Source: Mucilaginibacter mallensis (GTDB lineage Bacteria; Bacteroidota; Bacteroidia; Sphingobacteriales; Sphingobacteriaceae). From it: a stretch of 64,000 nt of DNA. Numbering within the stretch: the stretch's first letter is position 1; every line of letters starts with the position of its first letter. The notes beneath the pieces were generated by a model. That model had not been told where the DNA came from, made no database searches, and was given only the letters and a program-made list of their open reading frames with translations. Below are positions 19,993 through 26,393 of the stretch, one piece after another. A program made the position numbers and the translations under genes. Location of the stretch: contig NZ_LT629740.1 of assembly GCF_900105165.1 (NCBI RefSeq), positions 2,294,001 through 2,358,000 on the forward strand. Reading direction: 5' to 3'.

Positions 19993-20004
19993 TATTGTGT
20001 TGCT

Positions 20005-20218
20005 TTGATTTATAAATCAGCGCAACACAAGTTGAAAAAAAATATATCCATATCGCTTTATTGGAAATGCCAGCTTATCGGGTGGTCGGTTGCTGCGTTG
20101 TATTGGAGTTATATAGGATACTCTGGCGGCCGTTTTAATGTTTTCATTGGTCTGTTTCAATTTTTGTCAGATGTTTTTGTTTACATATTGATCACCCACT
20201 TATACCGTAATTTTGCAA
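20005..20218 (+). pseudogene. Split LytS-type sensor histidine kinase, 5' fragment
   Basis: The first 71 codons of a membrane sensor kinase, with two hydrophobic segments (about residues 23-40 and 45-66). No ATG is available; translation would begin at the TTG at 20005 or at a second in-frame TTG at 20032. After codon 71 the frame enters a mobile element and stops at 20226. Removing 20219-25510 and one target copy (25511-25518) joins this fragment in frame to the 3' part at 25519 (junction N-F-A-I-K-H-K-W), restoring about 362 residues. The clean in-frame join shows the gene was intact before a recent insertion. Confidence 0.92.
20211..20218. repeat. Target site duplication, left copy
   Basis: TTTTGCAA immediately precedes the left terminal inverted repeat and recurs at 25511-25518 directly after the right one. 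Eight bases is the usual duplication length of IS1595-family elements. Confidence 0.95.
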
Positions 20219-20244
20219 GGCAATGATATATTACTTTACACCAA
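20219..20244 (+). repeat. Left terminal inverted repeat of the IS1595-family element
   Basis: The 26 bases are an exact reverse complement of 25485-25510. Identity stops at base 27 (A here, G in the reverse complement of the right end). Confidence 0.95.
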
Positions 20245-20285
20245 ATGAAAGTATTTATATTAAATGAAGATATTTAAAAATTTAA

Positions 20286-20750
20286 TTACAAAGTTTTTTG
20301 GGAAGAAAGACAAAAAATCACAAACTTCACAATCTCACTTAGAGCAAGAACAATTGTACCAATCGCAAGCCATAAGGTCAATCTGTTCAGCCGGGAAGTG
20401 TTTGCTTCCAAATGATTATCCAGCATTTGGTGCCGGGCAAGTTCAGAATCAGTCAACTTACGATTATTATCGTTTTCCAAAGCTTTAGCTTTATAGCCTC
20501 CGCTATGAACAAATAATCTTCCATCAAAAGTGGAAAGATAGTTGGGCAAAGTCTGATTTGATGGGTCTTTATAATCATTAATCCTTTGTATAAAACCATC
20601 TTTTTCCAGTTTGTGCAAAATCTCATCTATCTCTTTTTCATTTGGATAATTAAAGATTATTTTCACTTCTCCGAATGTTATATTCTTAGGTTGGTTAACT
20701 ATGAATTTAAGAATTTCATCTAACTTGTTAATTTCTGTGAAGTCGGTCAT
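20286..20750 (-). CDS. Cargo protein: winged-helix-like domain plus C-terminal membrane segment
   Basis: A 154-residue protein I do not recognise by name. The first 75 residues (INKLDEILKFIVNQPKNITF, then IDEILHKLEKDGFIQRIND) look like a winged-helix domain with a predicted recognition helix and wing. A charged helical stretch follows (about 90-120), then one strong C-terminal TM helix (WLAIGTIVLALSEIVKFVIF, about residues 127-147). It is the last gene of a minus-strand group that starts with the transposase and is 7 bp downstream of the 79-aa gene. A membrane-tethered DNA- or protein-binding role is possible but not shown. Confidence 0.65.
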   Translation of the reverse strand: MTDFTEINKLDEILKFIVNQPKNITFGEVKIIFNYPNEKEIDEILHKLEKDGFIQRINDYKDPSNQTLPNYLSTFDGRLFVHSGGYKAKALENDNNRKLTDSELARHQMLDNHLEANTSRLNRLTLWLAIGTIVLALSEIVKFVIFCLSSQKTL

Positions 20751-20757
20751 TGGTTTT

Positions 20758-20997
20758 TTAAACTGAGTGGAAAGGTAACTTTAAGCTATTTTTGAATTTA
20801 TCTAAATGGATCACATCACGAATTTCAGTTAATACATCTTTGTTAGGGCTATTTATCCAGTAAATACATAAAATATGACCATTTTGAATTAATTTTTTTA
20901 AATACAAAAAGAAATCATTTGCTAAATCATTATATCCTAAATCATAAAAAGTTTCCATTGCCAAATGAATATTCTTTGAGGTTTGAAAATGTTCCAT
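20758..20997 (-). CDS. Cargo protein: small hypothetical, 79 aa
   Basis: A 79-residue protein rich in Leu, Asn and aromatic residues, with no signal peptide or membrane helix. It reads as a compact alpha/beta protein (two helices around residues 8-36, a strand HILCIYWINS, another helix). It is not recognised. It lies 9 bp from the preceding gene and 7 bp from the following one in the transposase-led minus-strand group, and its codon use matches its neighbours, so it is likely a real gene. Confidence 0.6.
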   Translation of the reverse strand: MEHFQTSKNIHLAMETFYDLGYNDLANDFFLYLKKLIQNGHILCIYWINSPNKDVLTEIRDVIHLDKFKNSLKLPFHSV

Positions 20998-21006
20998 TTC
21001 AATAAT

Positions 21007-21468
21007 TTATTTAGATTTTTTAGGTGGAGGAACTCTCATTAACCCTGCAAGCAGATCATCAAATTTCACTTCCGGCTCAGGCTCTTGCTCAGGTTCTGCA
21101 GATTTGATTTCAGATTCTAACTTATCAAGTCCTTTTTCGGATAGAATAGATAAAATATAAAGGCACTTGAATAGTACGTTGGGATCGCTATCGCCTTTTA
21201 TATTGTCTTCTATTTTGCCAACACACACCGTAATTATATTTCTCAATGGTACAGCAATATCAGAATCACCTGCTTTATCTTTGAAAAAAATGGATTTATC
21301 ATTTTGATATAATACTGGTTTTCCAGTTGGAGTAGTTAAACCGATATAACTATTGAAGTCTTTTTGAGAAAAGTAAACGTGATTATCTTCTAATAGATAA
21401 TAGGCTATTTTAGCTTCACCCAATTGCAGGGTTTGTTGGTTTAATATTTTTAACTCTGTGGGCGGCAT
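21007..21468 (-). CDS. Cargo protein overlapping the transposase 3' end, 153 aa
   Basis: A 153-residue soluble protein of unknown function. The N-terminal half (LQLGEAKIAYYLLEDNHVYFSQKDFNSYIG) is beta-rich and is weakly reminiscent of the N-terminal part of P63C-type mobile-element proteins. A helical middle follows, then an acidic linker (EPEQEPEPEVKFDD) and a basic proline tail (VPPPKKSK). Its start overlaps the transposase end by 53 bp in another frame, so the two genes are translationally linked. That linkage and conserved reading frame suggest a function tied to transposition, but this is inference. Confidence 0.65.
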   Translation of the reverse strand: MPPTELKILNQQTLQLGEAKIAYYLLEDNHVYFSQKDFNSYIGLTTPTGKPVLYQNDKSIFFKDKAGDSDIAVPLRNIITVCVGKIEDNIKGDSDPNVLFKCLYILSILSEKGLDKLESEIKSAEPEQEPEPEVKFDDLLAGLMRVPPPKKSK

Positions 21469-22387
21469 TTTTAATATCGATTAGGTCATCGTATGTTAAC
21501 CTTCCTACAATATTAGATAAAATATAATCAAAACGTTCTGCCGTTCCTTTTTTTCTTGTGTTAAATCTTAACACAAATTCATTCACATAACTCTGTAAAT
21601 GATGCTTGCTTACCCAATGGTATTGCGAATCAATGCCTCGCTTTAAATGTGACCAAAAGTTCTCTACACCATTTGTATGAGCCATTTCATTAACGAATTG
21701 TTTAGCACCATGATTTACTCTTTTATGATTATACTTTTCATGCAAACGATTATATGATAACCATTCATCAGTGTAAACTGTTGCTCCCGCTGGAACCATT
21801 TTGTCTATAATGTCTTCTATCGTTTTACGGCCTACATCGTTAACAACCTGTGCATAGACATGACCATCTTTATCTCTTAATCCTATTACAGGCTTTTTTG
21901 AGGTTGTATTTCTACCTTGTGTGCCACCAGCCTTTTTCTTTTTGTGTTTATTAGCCTCTCTACCGCCCATATAAGTTTCATCGACCTGCACTTCATCTGT
22001 GAACTTAATATTGAAATCAGGGTGATTAAAAGCATACCGCAAGCGATGTAAAATAAACCATGCAGTTTTTTGAGTTACATCTATATCCTTTGCTAATTGG
22101 TGAGATGATATTCCTTTCTTATGGGATGAGAACACATACAAAGCCATGAACCATTTTACCAATGGAATTTTAGTATTATCGAATATGGTATTGGTTTTTA
22201 CATTAAAGTATTTACCAGTGTTTTTGCATTTGTATTTATTACCTGCACACTTATAGATTTTAGATTCTGGGTCAAATGGAGATATCACATTACCATTCCA
22301 TCTAATCTGCTCCATGCGTGTGATGCACTCCTGCTCAGACGGGAAAGTCTTGATTAAATCCAGTATACTTTTAAAGTCCGAAATCAT
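21416..22387 (-). CDS. IS1595-family ISXO2-like DDE transposase
   Basis: A 323-residue transposase. The N-terminal region carries a reduced zinc-ribbon-like segment (YKCAGNKYKCKNTGKYF) that keeps two of the usual four cysteines. A helix-turn-helix-like block follows (SSHQLAKDIDVTQKTAWFILHRLRYA, about 94-119). The catalytic core has D136 in VDETYMGG, D207 in VYTDEWLSY and E242 in NGVENFWSHLKRG, the signature of the DDE_Tnp_ISXO2 domain. It would cut and join the terminal repeats at 20219 and 25510. The frame is intact and starts at ATG 22387. Upstream, 71 bp separates it from a divergent cargo gene. Confidence 0.95.
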   Translation of the reverse strand: MISDFKSILDLIKTFPSEQECITRMEQIRWNGNVISPFDPESKIYKCAGNKYKCKNTGKYFNVKTNTIFDNTKIPLVKWFMALYVFSSHKKGISSHQLAKDIDVTQKTAWFILHRLRYAFNHPDFNIKFTDEVQVDETYMGGREANKHKKKKAGGTQGRNTTSKKPVIGLRDKDGHVYAQVVNDVGRKTIEDIIDKMVPAGATVYTDEWLSYNRLHEKYNHKRVNHGAKQFVNEMAHTNGVENFWSHLKRGIDSQYHWVSKHHLQSYVNEFVLRFNTRKKGTAERFDYILSNIVGRLTYDDLIDIKNAAHRVKNIKPTNPAIG

Positions 22388-22458
22388 AGTGTAAAGATAG
22401 GAATAAAATTTGACTTAAAGAAATATTTGAGTAGATATTTACACTAATTAATTATCCC

Positions 22459-23202
22459 ATGATATTTATAGAAATGGGAGTATTTTGGTTATTATTAATT
22501 ACATTTTGTATATTTCAAAGAAATAGAACCTGTAAAACTACAAACCTTATTAGCGAAAACATGAGACTTGAATCCTTTAGAGATTTATATAATTCAGAAC
22601 GTGAGTGGAAGTATAAATTAGATGACATAATACTAATTCCTATCGCCATATTAACAGGAGTTGGAAGCATTGTAAGTTTCATAGTTATTAATCATCCTAT
22701 AACTTTAAACTTTGAGGGTTATATAAATTTAGGTTTAATAATTCTTACACTAATATCAGTACTATGTAGTTTAGTTTCTTATACATTGTCATATGTAAAT
22801 ATATCAAACTGGTCTATAGGCTACGACTATTCTCATCCAACAGCTTGTAATGATGTGAACGCCTTCAGAGATGAATTGATTAGCGAAGGTAAAACTGATC
22901 TTATTGTAGAGAAAGAAACCGATGATTTTTTAGCTGAAATGTTTTCTGATTGTAGAGATGGAAATTTCAAAACCAATGAACACAGGGCAAAAAGAGTTGG
23001 ATATGGTAGATTATTTTTGTTGATTTCGGTATTTCTTACCTTCTTTTTATCAATAATGTTTATCTTTAGTTCTATGAAATTTCAAGAAATCAATTTTGCC
23101 AAAAAACCACCCACTACGGTGAAAGTTACTGAAGGTTCTATAATAAAAGATAAAACTTTGTTAATAGCCACACCGAAGCCTGATTCAGGAAAAAAGAAGT
23201 AG
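22459..23202 (+). CDS. Cargo protein: predicted four-TM membrane protein, 247 aa
   Basis: Unrecognised integral membrane protein. Hydrophobic helices are at about residues 5-20, 52-72, 78-100 and 181-203. A charged cytosolic-type region of about 75 residues lies between the third and fourth helices, and the short C-terminal tail ends in basic residues. The N-terminal pattern of an amphipathic stretch with WKYKLDD before a helical hairpin is reminiscent of SLATT-type membrane effectors of conflict systems, but I cannot establish this. It is divergent from the transposase and its stop is 2 bp from the convergent XRE gene. Confidence 0.65.
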   Translation: MIFIEMGVFWLLLITFCIFQRNRTCKTTNLISENMRLESFRDLYNSEREWKYKLDDIILIPIAILTGVGSIVSFIVINHPITLNFEGYINLGLIILTLISVLCSLVSYTLSYVNISNWSIGYDYSHPTACNDVNAFRDELISEGKTDLIVEKETDDFLAEMFSDCRDGNFKTNEHRAKRVGYGRLFLLISVFLTFFLSIMFIFSSMKFQEINFAKKPPTTVKVTEGSIIKDKTLLIATPKPDSGKKK

Positions 23203-23204
23203 CA

Positions 23205-23420
23205 TCAGATTTTTATAACTTCTTCCAATTTGACATCTAATCCTTCAGCTATCTCACATAGATAATAATATGACGGATTAATATTACCAGCTTCCAGCCG
23301 TTGGATTGACTGCTGATCTTTACCTATGGAATGGGCAAGTTGCACCTGTGTAATACCCTTTTCCTTTCGGATATCCCGGATACGTTCACCAAGTTTTTTA
23401 AGTAGTGCTTCCTTTTCCAT
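23205..23420 (-). CDS. XRE-family helix-turn-helix regulator, 71 aa
   Basis: A single-domain repressor-type protein. The helix-turn-helix is GERIRDIRKEKGITQVQLAHSIGKDQQSIQRLEAG, a typical XRE/Cro pattern, and it ends in SYYYLCEIAEGLDVKLEEVI. The ATG at 23420 is chosen; the frame continues upstream without a better start and would run over the operator repeats. It is divergent from the membrane TPR gene, and the 99-bp gap between them holds two abutting ACAAC-N6-GTTGT palindromes. Autoregulation plus control of the divergent gene is the simplest reading. Confidence 0.85.
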   Translation of the reverse strand: MEKEALLKKLGERIRDIRKEKGITQVQLAHSIGKDQQSIQRLEAGNINPSYYYLCEIAEGLDVKLEEVIKI

Positions 23421-23442
23421 TGGAAGTACATAAGTATAGTAA

Positions 23443-23474
23443 ACAACTTGGATGTTGTACAACGGATATGTTGT
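23443..23474. promoter_or_regulatory. Two abutting ACAAC-N6-GTTGT operator palindromes
   Basis: The first site is ACAAC (23443-23447), TTGGAT, GTTGT (23454-23458). The second is ACAAC (23459-23463), GGATAT, GTTGT (23470-23474). They touch with no gap, so they are 16 bp apart centre to centre. A candidate Bacteroidota -7 element of the TAnnTTTG form overlaps the right edge (23474-23481). Binding by the adjacent XRE protein is inferred from position and symmetry. Confidence 0.7.
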
Positions 23475-23519
23475 ATTTTTGAGATTATTTTGTACCTTAG
23501 TAATCCTGAAAATCCTTAT

Positions 23520-24482
23520 ATGAGAATTCAAGATTCTTGGGCGATAAAAGTGATAGTGAGATATATTGAGGCTTTAATGACTTTATATATAATTGGCTAT
23601 TTCTTTTTAGCCTTCTTTCTAATCTTTGGTTATATTTTTAAAAGAATTTATAATACCCTTGATTTTATACTTTTTTACATAGCTGGCATCAAATTTTTAA
23701 GACCTGATTTGGGGAAAAGAACCATTAAGTTAGATTCTGTTGATGGTTTTATGATCCCTTTTTTCATTTGTATGGGCTTGTTGTATGTATATGTCATTAA
23801 ACCACAAGATGACGAGGAAAAAGCTAATAACATAGCAGACCATAGACGTGTTGATTCTATGCAAAGAGTTGAGGATTCAGAAAATTATAATGAGCCTGCT
23901 GCCACTACAACATCTGATAATACACCCTCAACACAACCCACAACTGCACAAGATTATTTCAGATTAGGAAATGAAGTGGCCTATGGTAGGAACTATGAGG
24001 GTGCTATTATGGAATATGACAAGGCAATTGAACTTGACCCTAAAAACGGTGAATATTATTGTAACAGGGGTATTGCTAAGCATGAAATGGGTGGTAGTGA
24101 TAATGGCTGTTCAGATTGGCAAAAAGCTGCTGAATTAGGTAATAAATACGCAGTTAATGCACTTAGTAATTTTTGTAAAGTTAATCTTCCAGCAACAAAA
24201 GATACATCCCAAAGACAAGCATCCAGCGTTAATACCTCTTTAGCCGATACAACATTAACAAATAATGTTTCGCCTAGACAAATTCAATATACAGTAACTA
24301 CCGATAGAGCCTATTTTTATAATAACCCAGCTGACGTACAATCTATAAGGAAAGGATATTTAGTTGCAGGTGAAAATATTGTTGGTTCGGAGGAATCTAA
24401 TGGATTTGTTTATTGTGTGTTTACAAATTCAACAACCATGAAATCTTCCAAAGGATGGATATCTAAATCTTGTCTAAAATAA
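23520..24482 (+). CDS. Cargo protein: membrane-anchored TPR protein with SH3-like C-terminus
   Basis: A 320-residue protein from ATG 23520; a longer frame exists upstream but would start inside the operator repeats. It has two or three hydrophobic helices in the first 100 residues and a low-complexity Thr/Asp/Gln linker at about 115-145. Tetratricopeptide-type repeats follow (ARNYEGAIMEYDKAIELDPKN type pattern, about 148-220). The end resembles a bacterial SH3 domain (RAYFYNNPADVQSIRKGYLV and KGWISKSCL). Such proteins usually sit in the membrane with a scaffold part on one side. It is probably repressed by the XRE protein. No enzymatic motif was seen. Confidence 0.75.
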   Translation: MRIQDSWAIKVIVRYIEALMTLYIIGYFFLAFFLIFGYIFKRIYNTLDFILFYIAGIKFLRPDLGKRTIKLDSVDGFMIPFFICMGLLYVYVIKPQDDEEKANNIADHRRVDSMQRVEDSENYNEPAATTTSDNTPSTQPTTAQDYFRLGNEVAYGRNYEGAIMEYDKAIELDPKNGEYYCNRGIAKHEMGGSDNGCSDWQKAAELGNKYAVNALSNFCKVNLPATKDTSQRQASSVNTSLADTTLTNNVSPRQIQYTVTTDRAYFYNNPADVQSIRKGYLVAGENIVGSEESNGFVYCVFTNSTTMKSSKGWISKSCLK

Positions 24483-24512
24483 ATCATTGAATCAGTATAT
24501 ATAAAAAGCTTA

Positions 24513-25007
24513 ATGAACAATATTCATAATTTGATCATAGATGTAGATGAATTTTTAGATAATTCAATTAACTCTAATAATCTTGATAAGATTACCATAC
24601 CTAACAATAAAAACCTTAAAGATTTACTTGGTACGACTTTTCCGACTGAATCATCTTCAATTAACATTACTTTAAACTCACTGACATATCATTATAATTT
24701 GTTAAAGGGTGAATATTTAATGACCATCATACATGGAATGATTCTTACAAATAAGCGAGTATTTTTACATCTCCCAAGAGATAATAGAATAAGCATACCA
24801 TTATCCAATATCATATCGTATAACATTGATAAAGATAAAGCTATATTACAATTCTCATTTTTAGATGCTGAAGAAGCATTTGTTTTGAATCGTTGGATTA
24901 AACAATCTATTGTTATTAATGCTGTAGAAAATCATAAGAATGATATAGATTTTAAGAATGATGATTTAGTTAAAATAATCTGGACTCTAAAGAAGGATTT
25001 TTTCTAA
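24513..25007 (+). CDS. Cargo protein: possible bacterial PH-like domain, 164 aa
   Basis: An unrecognised soluble protein. The middle stretch GMILTNKRVFLHLPRDNRISIPLSNIISYNIDKDKAILQF resembles the beta-strand order of bacterial PH-like domains, where a LTNKR motif is followed by an I-P-L-x-x-I strand. I split it here only for description: LTNKRVFLHL, then ISIPLSNIISYNI. N- and C-terminal parts are helical and polar. It starts 30 bp after the TPR/SH3 gene on the same strand and probably shares its promoter, so the two may act together at the membrane. Confidence 0.6.
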   Translation: MNNIHNLIIDVDEFLDNSINSNNLDKITIPNNKNLKDLLGTTFPTESSSINITLNSLTYHYNLLKGEYLMTIIHGMILTNKRVFLHLPRDNRISIPLSNIISYNIDKDKAILQFSFLDAEEAFVLNRWIKQSIVINAVENHKNDIDFKNDDLVKIIWTLKKDFF

Positions 25008-25071
25008 TTTTAAAATGAACTAAAAAGCAGACCAGAGCCACATGTTTATTTACCTATTATCAATCAATAAA

Positions 25072-25094
25072 GCCTCCTGAAATCGTCAGGAGGC
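25072..25094 (-). terminator. Terminator hairpin for the 46-aa gene, probably bidirectional
   Basis: GCCTCCTGA and TCAGGAGGC form a perfect 9-bp stem around a 5-base loop. Read on the minus strand it is followed by TTTATT, and on the plus strand a T-run lies a little farther away (GGTTTTTT). It lies between the convergent 164-aa and 46-aa genes. Confidence 0.75.
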
Positions 25095-25135
25095 AGTCAA
25101 GGTTTTTTCATGAAATGGGTTTAATCTTAATTAAC

Positions 25136-25276
25136 TTACTTTTTACCACCCTTGCCGCTGGCTTGTGATACTACACTTCCAGCAAGGCTTTTTGCAATAG
25201 CCGAAGATTTAGGATTACTGAGTACTTTACCAGCTTTTGATGCCTCACTTGCTGAAGATTGTTTAGTGTTAGCCAT
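25136..25276 (-). CDS. Small basic Ser/Ala/Lys-rich protein, 46 aa
   Basis: A short gene starting ATG at 25276 and ending TAA at 25136. The product starts MANTKQSSASEASKAGKVLS and continues NPKSSAIAKSLAGSVVSQ before a GKGGKK end. It is basic and Ser/Ala-rich without cysteines. Short proteins of this style (ASK-A-x-VL, AKSLAGSxLSQ) recur on plasmids, integrative elements and phages; their function is unknown to me. It is supported by a dedicated terminator at 25072-25094 and its placement at the right end of the element. Confidence 0.75.
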   Translation of the reverse strand: MANTKQSSASEASKAGKVLSNPKSSAIAKSLAGSVVSQASGKGGKK

Positions 25277-25484
25277 AACTTAATATGTGACTTATTTTAT
25301 GTCACATTTAAATATACCCAATAAATCGCTTACTAACAATATTAGTTTTCAACAACCTGTTGGAATATCTCATTCCATATTATTATATAGAAATTATTGA
25401 CGTAGATAATTGTGAATAACTTAAATGAAGTTTAATTATCACTTTTCTAAACTATATTTGATTCAAGTGATGAAGAATTTTTAC
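25277..25484. other. AT-rich right-end region of the element
   Basis: Noncoding DNA between the 46-aa gene and the right inverted repeat. It must hold the promoter of the 46-aa gene, reading leftward. No further open frame or clear repeat was found. Confidence 0.5.
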
Positions 25485-25510
25485 TTGGTGTAAAGTAATA
25501 TATCATTGCC
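25485..25510 (-). repeat. Right terminal inverted repeat of the IS1595-family element
   Basis: Exact reverse complement of 20219-20244. A TTG at 25506 inside this repeat is in frame with the 3' part of the split kinase and could serve as a new start. Confidence 0.95.
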
Positions 25511-26393
25511 TTTTGCAATTAAACACAAATGGCAAAAGCTAGATTTTAACCAGCTATTAAAACGGATTGTTCCGGCAATTTTTGTAATGGGTTTGGCCTA
25601 TTTACTGGTGACGGTAATTAAAAGTTATTTATTCAGATTTTGGCTCGCGCCTGACAATGTACCGGCATTTATGATTTTTTTTAGGCTTAATTGGGCGATT
25701 ATGTTAATGGCCGGTATAAGATTAATGGCCATTTGGCTGCTGGCTTATCATTTGTACCACTATGCACAGCGGGAGATCAATATTGCAAAAGAAAATGCCC
25801 GTTTAGCCATCATTGCCAAGGATGCACAGCTTAGTAGTTTATCGGCACAACTTAATCCGCACTTCCTGTTCAATTCATTAAACAATATAAAGGCCCTGGT
25901 GATTGAAAACCCCAAATCTGCACGAAGGGCAATAGACTTATTATCTGATCTGTTACGGACGGCACTTTACAGCGACGATGTGTTACTAACTACTGTAAAG
26001 GATGAACTTGCCCTGGTCAAAGATTATTTTGAGCTGGAAAAATTACGCTTTGAAGAACGTTTGCAGTTTTGTATTGAGGCAGATGATCGATTGAATAATG
26101 CATTGATCCTGCGCTTCAGCATCCAAACGCTTGCAGAAAATGCGATAAAACATGGCATTGCCAGGCAAAAAAGCGGAGGCCTCGTCAGCGTAAAAGTTGT
26201 AGTGGTGGATAATTACATTAATATCAGCGTCCAAAACCCGGGAGAATTTAATATGGATGAACAAAATGAAGGTTTAGGAATTAAGAACTTAACTGAGCGT
26301 TTGCAGCTGCAATATAAAGGTTTGGCAAAATTCGGTATCATTAATGAGGCAGGAGGAAATGTCTTATCAACCATACTTATCCCACGCTCATGA
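25511..26393 (+). pseudogene. Split LytS-type sensor histidine kinase, 3' fragment
   Basis: Residues equivalent to about 72-362 of the original kinase, after the second target copy TTTTGCAA (25511-25518). It keeps two predicted TM helices, a linker helix, the His_kinase (PF06580) box with QLNPHFLFNSLNNIKALV, the N-box LAENAIKHG and the ATP-lid GLGIKNLTERLQ, so the catalytic part is intact. It could be translated from the TTG at 25506 inside the right inverted repeat, giving a 295-residue kinase lacking the first two TM helices. It overlaps the response regulator start (ATGA at 26390). Confidence 0.9.

Follow-up and report, generated by a model that had tools for sequence, protein, structure and literature searches.

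Abutting palindromes beside a 71-residue XRE gene in Mucilaginibacter mallensis: putative operators whose arms covary with the recognition helix of the adjacent regulator

Introduction

What is the role of two touching palindromes in the short gap between a small regulator gene and a divergent membrane-protein gene? This question arises from a locus of Mucilaginibacter mallensis, which lies in a window of 64 kb (the whole stretch of DNA that was analyzed). From comparison of the locus with its relatives, we consider it quite probable that the neighbouring 71-aa XRE protein uses the two palindromes as operators, with site 1 repressing the divergent promoter and site 2 tightening autorepression.

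Results

Two abutting palindromes between xre and the divergent gene

ACAACttggatGTTGT at 23443-23458 and ACAACggatatGTTGT at 23459-23474 are both of the form ACAAC-N6-GTTGT, with identical arms and 0 bp between them. The first-pass annotation had described two touching palindromes with the same arms and a 6-bp spacer, and these were found. The 99-bp gap that it gave between the XRE and TPR/SH3 genes was also confirmed, from the xre ATG at 23420 (minus strand) to the ATG of the TPR gene at 23520 (plus strand). As for the label of the latter gene, the TPR part is borne out by a TPR_11 match (2e-9), whereas the SH3 part had no family match. The genes and sites are as follows.

23205..23420, minus strand: XRE/HTH_3 regulator of 71 aa, recognition helix KDQQSIQRLE at residues 34-43 (Pfam HTH_3, 5.2e-14)
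23443..23458, no strand: putative operator site 2, which abuts site 1 on its xre side; a second site is present in 5/40 nonredundant loci
23459..23474, no strand: putative operator site 1, primary and conserved, ACAACATATCCGTTGT on the xre strand, -54 to -39 from the xre ATG
23520..24482, plus strand: divergent membrane protein with a TPR region, the predicted repressed target
24513..25007, plus strand: 164-aa protein of no family, possibly co-transcribed

Read in the orientation of xre, the distal site ACAACATATCCGTTGT matches the relatives in position and in its central AT, and the proximal site ACAACATCCAAGTTGT is an extra copy. The junction of the two sites, GTTGTACAAC, is a perfect 10-bp palindrome. 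It was considered as an operator and rejected, because single-site relatives retain ACAAC-N6-GTTGT. Since most relatives carry one such palindrome, the 16-bp unit is the real register.

ACAAC-N6-GTTGT occurs twice in the 64-kb window, against 0.04 expected from dinucleotide shuffles of the window, and none of 100 shuffles contained two sites. In the whole 6.0-Mb genome, the pattern was found 10 times and a reversed control pattern 17 times; a single site is thus not unusual. Seven of the eight other exact matches are inside open frames of at least 199 codons, and one is in a hairpin. No genome-wide regulon was found among the exact matches in the 6.0-Mb genome. Because the other matches sit in open frames or a hairpin, XRE is suggested to be a local regulator. 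In the hairpin (L010, 1491-1526, near 5460081 of the same genome), ACAAC-N6-GTTGT forms the tip of a structure with 15-bp arms outside long frames, which may be a terminator.

XRE is a small HTH_3 protein

The HTH_3 domain of XRE scored 52.5 bits in Pfam against a cutoff of 23, which places the protein in the XRE/HTH_3 (Cro/CI-type) family. In the AF2 model (mean pLDDT 97), the recognition helix spans residues 36-43 and starts at Q36. The best Foldseek matches by E-value were C.AhdI (1y7y, TM 0.91), which ranked first, and C.BclI; C.Esp1396I matched too. The control-protein models of PADLOC also match XRE (best Control_protein, 2e-7). In a profile alignment to the 434 repressor (1r63), Q36-Q37-S38-I39 of XRE falls on QQSI.

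NCBIfam returned 16 matches for XRE, every one under the curated cutoff. XRE was not classed as a HipB/Y4mF type II antitoxin, given no match over the NCBIfam cutoff and no toxin family among 6 neighbours. The plasmid search gave no match and the phage search two matches only (39-40%).

The palindrome recurs ahead of xre homologs

An XRE homolog was found in 20/60 relatives at E 1e-8 and in 24/301 family genomes at E 1e-15, the genome of the window being counted in both. A scan with one genome per species yielded 88 relatives, mostly from Mucilaginibacter, Pedobacter, Dyadobacter and other Bacteroidota, of which the best 80 were kept. These include two pairs with identical XREs as well as MAGs labelled Saccharibacteria and Ignavibacteria. 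Closer homologs have the identical palindrome about 40-55 bp ahead of the start codon, and distant homologs have other palindromes.

A motif-free scan of the upstreams of the best 80 of 88 relatives found perfect 5-bp arms with a 6-bp spacer in 68/80, against 19.0 on average in 10 shuffles. In these upstreams, odd spacers remained at background level; spacers of 4, 8 and 10 were also raised (42, 52 and 38), as expected of longer palindromes. In 64/80 named loci (best 80 of 88), one of five arm types forms an exact operator at -92 to -40. For exact operators of four arm types at -90 to -40, the operator end is 33-70 bp from the start codon, with a median of 38. These results look like what operators of the adjacent XRE would give in sequence comparison. 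The first-pass annotation had expected the same palindromes upstream of homologous XRE/TPR pairs: they do recur before xre homologs, but XRE and TPR do not form a conserved pair.

Of 40 nonredundant ACAAC-operator loci including the window, 5 have a second site with no more than 1 mismatch, always at +16; no further offset up to 60 bp gave one in the 40 loci. A weak +16 second site as a rule for all relatives was rejected, since a PWM scan of the 40 loci ranked +16 fifth (z 2.15), and +16 fell outside the top eight once loci whose second site is exact had been taken out. Thus, the abutting second site is confined to a minority of relatives, and tandem binding is not the general design. A different arrangement was seen in L123, L171 and L173, whose RQQ-type XREs accompany a pair of GCAAC-type sites, each with 0-1 mismatch, that do not abut but lie 34 bp apart.

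The operator arms covary with the recognition helix

The helix-arm set comprised 146 loci, reduced to 120 unique upstreams with close relatives retained; 15 had no readable helix signature, and L177 was excluded for its short upstream. Helix classes were named by XRE residues 36, 37 and 40, and arms were counted if exact. The QQQ class (Q36, Q37, Q40) had exact ACAAC-N6-GTTGT in 53/57 unique upstreams, the exceptions being L108 and L130 (without a site), L055 (1-mismatch sites) and L050 (a variant). ACAAC was also found with QQH (2/2), and ATAAC with QPN (7/7). TCAAC arms accompanied RQE (3/6), PQE (2/2), AQE (1/1) and PQS (3/3), and TAAAC arms RQN (4/8) and PQN (2/2). The remaining 3/6 RQE and 4/8 RQN loci have no exact arm, and several of these show near matches by eye. 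GCAAC arms were seen in the RQQ loci, 3/5 exact and 2/5 with one mismatch. Classes with a single locus gave ACAAC for QQN, ATAAC for QPQ and ASG, and TAAAC for HQY and KQT, and no exact arm for AQN, KQN, KQQ, PQY, RQY, NRQ and YHL. Helix classes with at least two loci never combined exact arms from more than one of the four tested types.

All 71 XRE columns were compared with the arm bases by permutation in 57 nonredundant loci. The top-ranking column was 36 for arm base 1 (z 14.4) and 37 for arm base 2 (z 17.5), and column 40 came second for each; the helix-arm numbers are inflated by the shared ancestry of the loci. By raw mutual information, column 40 (0.62) exceeded column 37 (0.54) for arm base 2. 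An XRE tree built without the helix columns was poorly resolved and showed 9 arm changes, with only 2-4 independent pairs per trait. The pairs were almost all concordant, in an underpowered and non-significant test.

The helix-arm rule was fixed before new loci were fetched. Of 68 new loci, 57 were outside the rule, 6 were duplicates and 5 were scored. Two of the five were exact and two had one mismatch; one was a miss, and none had the exact arm of another type. L212 (GPQSIERVE, exact TCAAC) lay outside the helix pattern of the script and was uncounted in this test.

The 434 repressor reads ACAA with Q28 at base 1 and Q29 at base 2, and in the Q28A variant the preference at base 1 becomes T. 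Natural A, P and R variants at column 36 of XRE mostly have T at arm base 1 (G in RQQ). By sequence comparison alone, operator base 1 is associated with helix position 36 and base 2 with position 37.

Two further groups of loci were observed. For KDRQA[ILMV]EK-type helices (L025, L227, L236-L247), none of the five arm types occurs as an exact operator, and some of their upstreams hold TGTCA...TGACA and ATGACAAATTTGTCAT-like repeats. In L022, L050 and L115, the recognition helix is followed by DFNPT, and an altered palindrome (ACACTCTATCGAGTGT or ACAATCTATCGTATGT) occupies the same place; in L022, the helix is changed too. The DFNPT loci hint that the loop after the recognition helix also influences specificity.

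A promoter-like box stands at a conserved distance from the operator

Promoters of Bacteroidota carry TAnnTTTG as their -7 element and TTTG around -33 (PMC2483708, PMC7366714); one of these papers reports no -33 motif in RNA-seq data from Flavobacterium (PMC7366714). Three candidate elements were assigned in the window.

23431..23438, minus strand: TATACTTA, weak candidate for a -7-like element of the xre promoter, placed where relatives have [AT]C[CT]TT[TG]A
23471..23473, plus strand: TTG within the arm of the operator, a possible -33 for the divergent (TPR/SH3) promoter, with conserved spacing to the TAnnTTTG box
23493..23500, plus strand: TACCTTAG, predicted -7 (TAnnTTTG, 1 mismatch) of the divergent promoter, at a conserved distance from the operator

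On the divergent side of 66 nonredundant loci, TAnnTTTG with at most 1 mismatch peaked at offsets 17 (15 loci), 19 (13) and 18 (9), and the single-offset maximum in 200 base shuffles was 8. The box was located at offsets 15-20 from the operator in 44/56 divergent loci, or 38/49 once near-identical flanks were removed, compared with 1-18/56 for ten other six-base ranges. By locus type, among the 64 named loci with an exact operator (from the best 80 of 88 relatives), it was present in 26/36 close divergent, 18/20 far divergent, 0/7 close tandem and 1/1 far tandem loci; the seven close tandem loci are one related conjugative element and so make one comparison, not seven. A -7-like box at a conserved distance on the divergent side is thus well supported in the alignments. 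The first-pass annotation had a -7 box overlapping the site, which we took as TATTTTTG (23474-23481); the relatives support TACCTTAG instead.

With the TTG-bearing arms (ACAAC and TCAAC), the box was at 15-20 in 39/45 divergent loci. With ATAAC and TAAAC arms it was there in 5/11, the TAAAC loci having it at 14-15. Since ATAAC and TAAAC arms lack TTG, a -33 role does not apply to them. The operator TTG may therefore serve as -33 in most arm classes, not in all. An overlap of operator and promoter is suggested by this spacing. Transcription of the TPR gene would be expected to start near 23505.

On the xre side, TAnnTTTG was in excess at offset 3, right after the operator (10/66 against a shuffle maximum of 6). 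A further element, [AT]C[CT]TT[TG]A, was observed at +24 to +30 (23429-23435 of the window), with one T at 97% and a position fixed to the operator, not to the ATG.

The fixed distance between operator and -7-like box in most divergent loci makes it likely that both sides are controlled. The view that the layout controls both promoters is upheld to that extent, although the abutting pair on which it was based occurs in a minority of relatives.

The facing gene changes

The TPR gene is not a constant partner of xre. A TPR match was found in 34/60 genomes, full length only in that of the window, and a conserved XRE/TPR pair was accordingly rejected; the whole TPR protein was not found beside xre among the 60 relatives searched. 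Among the neighbour ORFs of the relatives, it matches one TPR protein, which is not itself a divergent partner.

Neighbour genes were called by a longest-ORF script, so that some of these ORFs may be spurious. In the best 80 of 88 loci, the nearest upstream gene was divergent in 67 (63 within 400 bp), tandem in 11 and absent in 2. The 63 divergent partners from these loci form 52 BLAST groups and are mostly unrelated. Pfam found scattered domains in 4 of 10 divergent partners examined, and PADLOC had no match in the same 10. An N-terminal hydrophobic stretch was detected in 40/63 partners against 210/586 other ORFs (p 3e-5), where hydrophobic and lipobox counts were made by crude rules on partners of at least 80 aa and other ORFs of at least 100 aa. 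The facing genes are enriched in predicted exported proteins.

Homology of the partners depends on the identity of the XREs. Partners were homologous in 9/10 pairs at XRE identities of at least 85%, in 1/24 at 75-85%, in 3/126 at 65-75% and in 3/1793 below. Thus, the regulator-operator unit is kept, and the facing gene changes as XREs diverge.

Seven of the 11 tandem loci are a conjugative element, in which the operator is present with no divergent gene. A coupling-protein gene and an RteC-family gene flank XRE there, and genes for relaxase and TraG are close by; the Pfam names are from one related locus, L037, and homologs in the seven were identified by BLAST. This context suggests that XRE may control transfer or excision of the element. 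In L036-L040 (whole-genome loci), L085, L086, L091, L094, L095, L100 and L102, XRE with one operator is flanked by the gene of a T4SS coupling protein and by one of the rteC family.

Positions 20000-25999 of the window have a GC content of 30-35%, compared with 37-42% on the flanks. This part encodes an IS1595-type transposase (21416-22387) as well as several proteins that match no family, and is possibly acquired DNA.

Discussion

Under the proposed mechanism, XRE would be a minimal HTH_3 regulator, folded like C.AhdI and reading DNA by a recognition helix that resembles that of the 434 repressor. An XRE dimer would read ACAAC and GTTGT by its recognition helices, Q36 contacting arm base 1 and Q37 base 2. 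At site 1, the bound dimer would cover the -33 region of the promoter that drives the divergent membrane gene, and would repress this promoter. Site 2 fills the gap toward xre, and its occupancy would be added over the xre promoter, giving tighter autorepression. Since 16 bp is about 1.5 helical turns, two dimers would lie on opposite faces of the DNA. Their binding may be cooperative.

XRE could instead be an activator-repressor switch in the style of restriction-modification (R-M) controllers, in which site 1 turns xre on at low XRE and site 2 turns it off at high XRE. We think this unlikely, but it deserves consideration in view of the fold matches, of which C.AhdI is the best by E-value and C.BclI and C.Esp1396I are others, and of the PADLOC control-protein matches. 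Two operators before the own gene also recall the controller operators (PMC3115060). The operator, however, stands at a fixed distance from a divergent -7-like box, and site 2 is missing in 35/40 nonredundant loci. The half-site differs from the usual one, and no R-M match was found beside xre among 7 proteins at 20286-25007 (Pfam) or 6 of them (NCBIfam, PADLOC); a weak PADLOC hit among these neighbours was PDC-S27 (0.0015).

The operator could also serve xre autoregulation alone, with the divergent gene an unrelated bystander. That the seven conjugative-element loci retain the operator without a divergent gene is in agreement with this idea, as is the fact that the divergent genes are mostly non-homologous. 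A bystander would hardly account for a -7-like box at a fixed distance in 44/56 divergent and 0/7 close tandem loci, and we regard this explanation as improbable. That the palindromes serve another regulator or are a chance repeat is scarcely credible, for even though single sites are not above the control pattern genome-wide, the arms vary with the helix of the adjacent XRE and exact operators of the five arm types stand at -92 to -40 in 64/80 named loci (best 80 of 88).

Operators of the adjacent XRE, acting on the divergent promoter and on xre, thus remain our preferred reading. A wider one, on which our judgment is evenly divided, is that these proteins form a minimal-regulator family of Bacteroidota, in which a bidirectional operator-promoter unit is kept and the facing gene is swapped for unrelated, often exported proteins over short evolutionary distances. 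The helix-operator pairs would then be a natural code reproducing the contact map of the 434 repressor. In the code proposed as part of this wider reading, QQ would specify ACAAC, QP ATAAC and RQQ GCAAC; non-Q36 would specify TCAAC with E or S at residue 40 and TAAAC with N, Y or T.

In most of the loci examined, the regulator adjoins its own putative operator, and each pair is therefore a ready-made record of protein-DNA specificity. Natural change of helix-turn-helix specificity becomes directly testable with small proteins, and the helix-operator pairs could yield orthogonal repressor-operator sets. It is also predicted that unrelated exported proteins across many Bacteroidota share one type of switch. 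No operator code of this kind for XRE proteins was found in the open literature searched; comparable correlation studies exist for other families, namely MerR (PMC5045206) and IclR (PMC8222616).

Comparison with known systems

XRE shares with the 434 repressor and Cro the QQSI recognition helix, by alignment, and the half-site ACAA. In both, a change at the first Gln of the helix accompanies a change at operator base 1. The spacing is different: ACAA and TTGT are 6 bp apart in the 434 operator (ACAA-N6-TTGT), whereas the XRE site is ACAA-N8-TTGT. XRE, at 71 aa in all, is without the C-terminal oligomerisation/cleavage domain of 434-type repressors, and no phage-like family was found among the window neighbours scanned (Pfam, NCBIfam, PADLOC).

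The R-M controller proteins C.AhdI and C.Esp1396I are similar to XRE in size (~70-80 aa) and fold, and both kinds of protein have operators, sometimes two, before their own gene. The half-sites of the C-box are usually GACT..AGTC, with CTAAGN5CTTAG of C.Csp231I as an exception (PMC3115060). The ACAAC/GTTGT of XRE differs from the usual GACT/AGTC, and a divergent gene is the usual neighbour in XRE loci, unlike in those of R-M controllers.

Small XRE regulators of conjugative elements are matched by seven named loci, in which homologs of the coupling protein and of the RteC family flank xre. Unlike these, most loci face an unrelated, often exported, single protein. Nothing is out of the ordinary in a small XRE having an operator beside its own gene; the unusual features are the natural series of helix-operator pairs and the changing facing gene.
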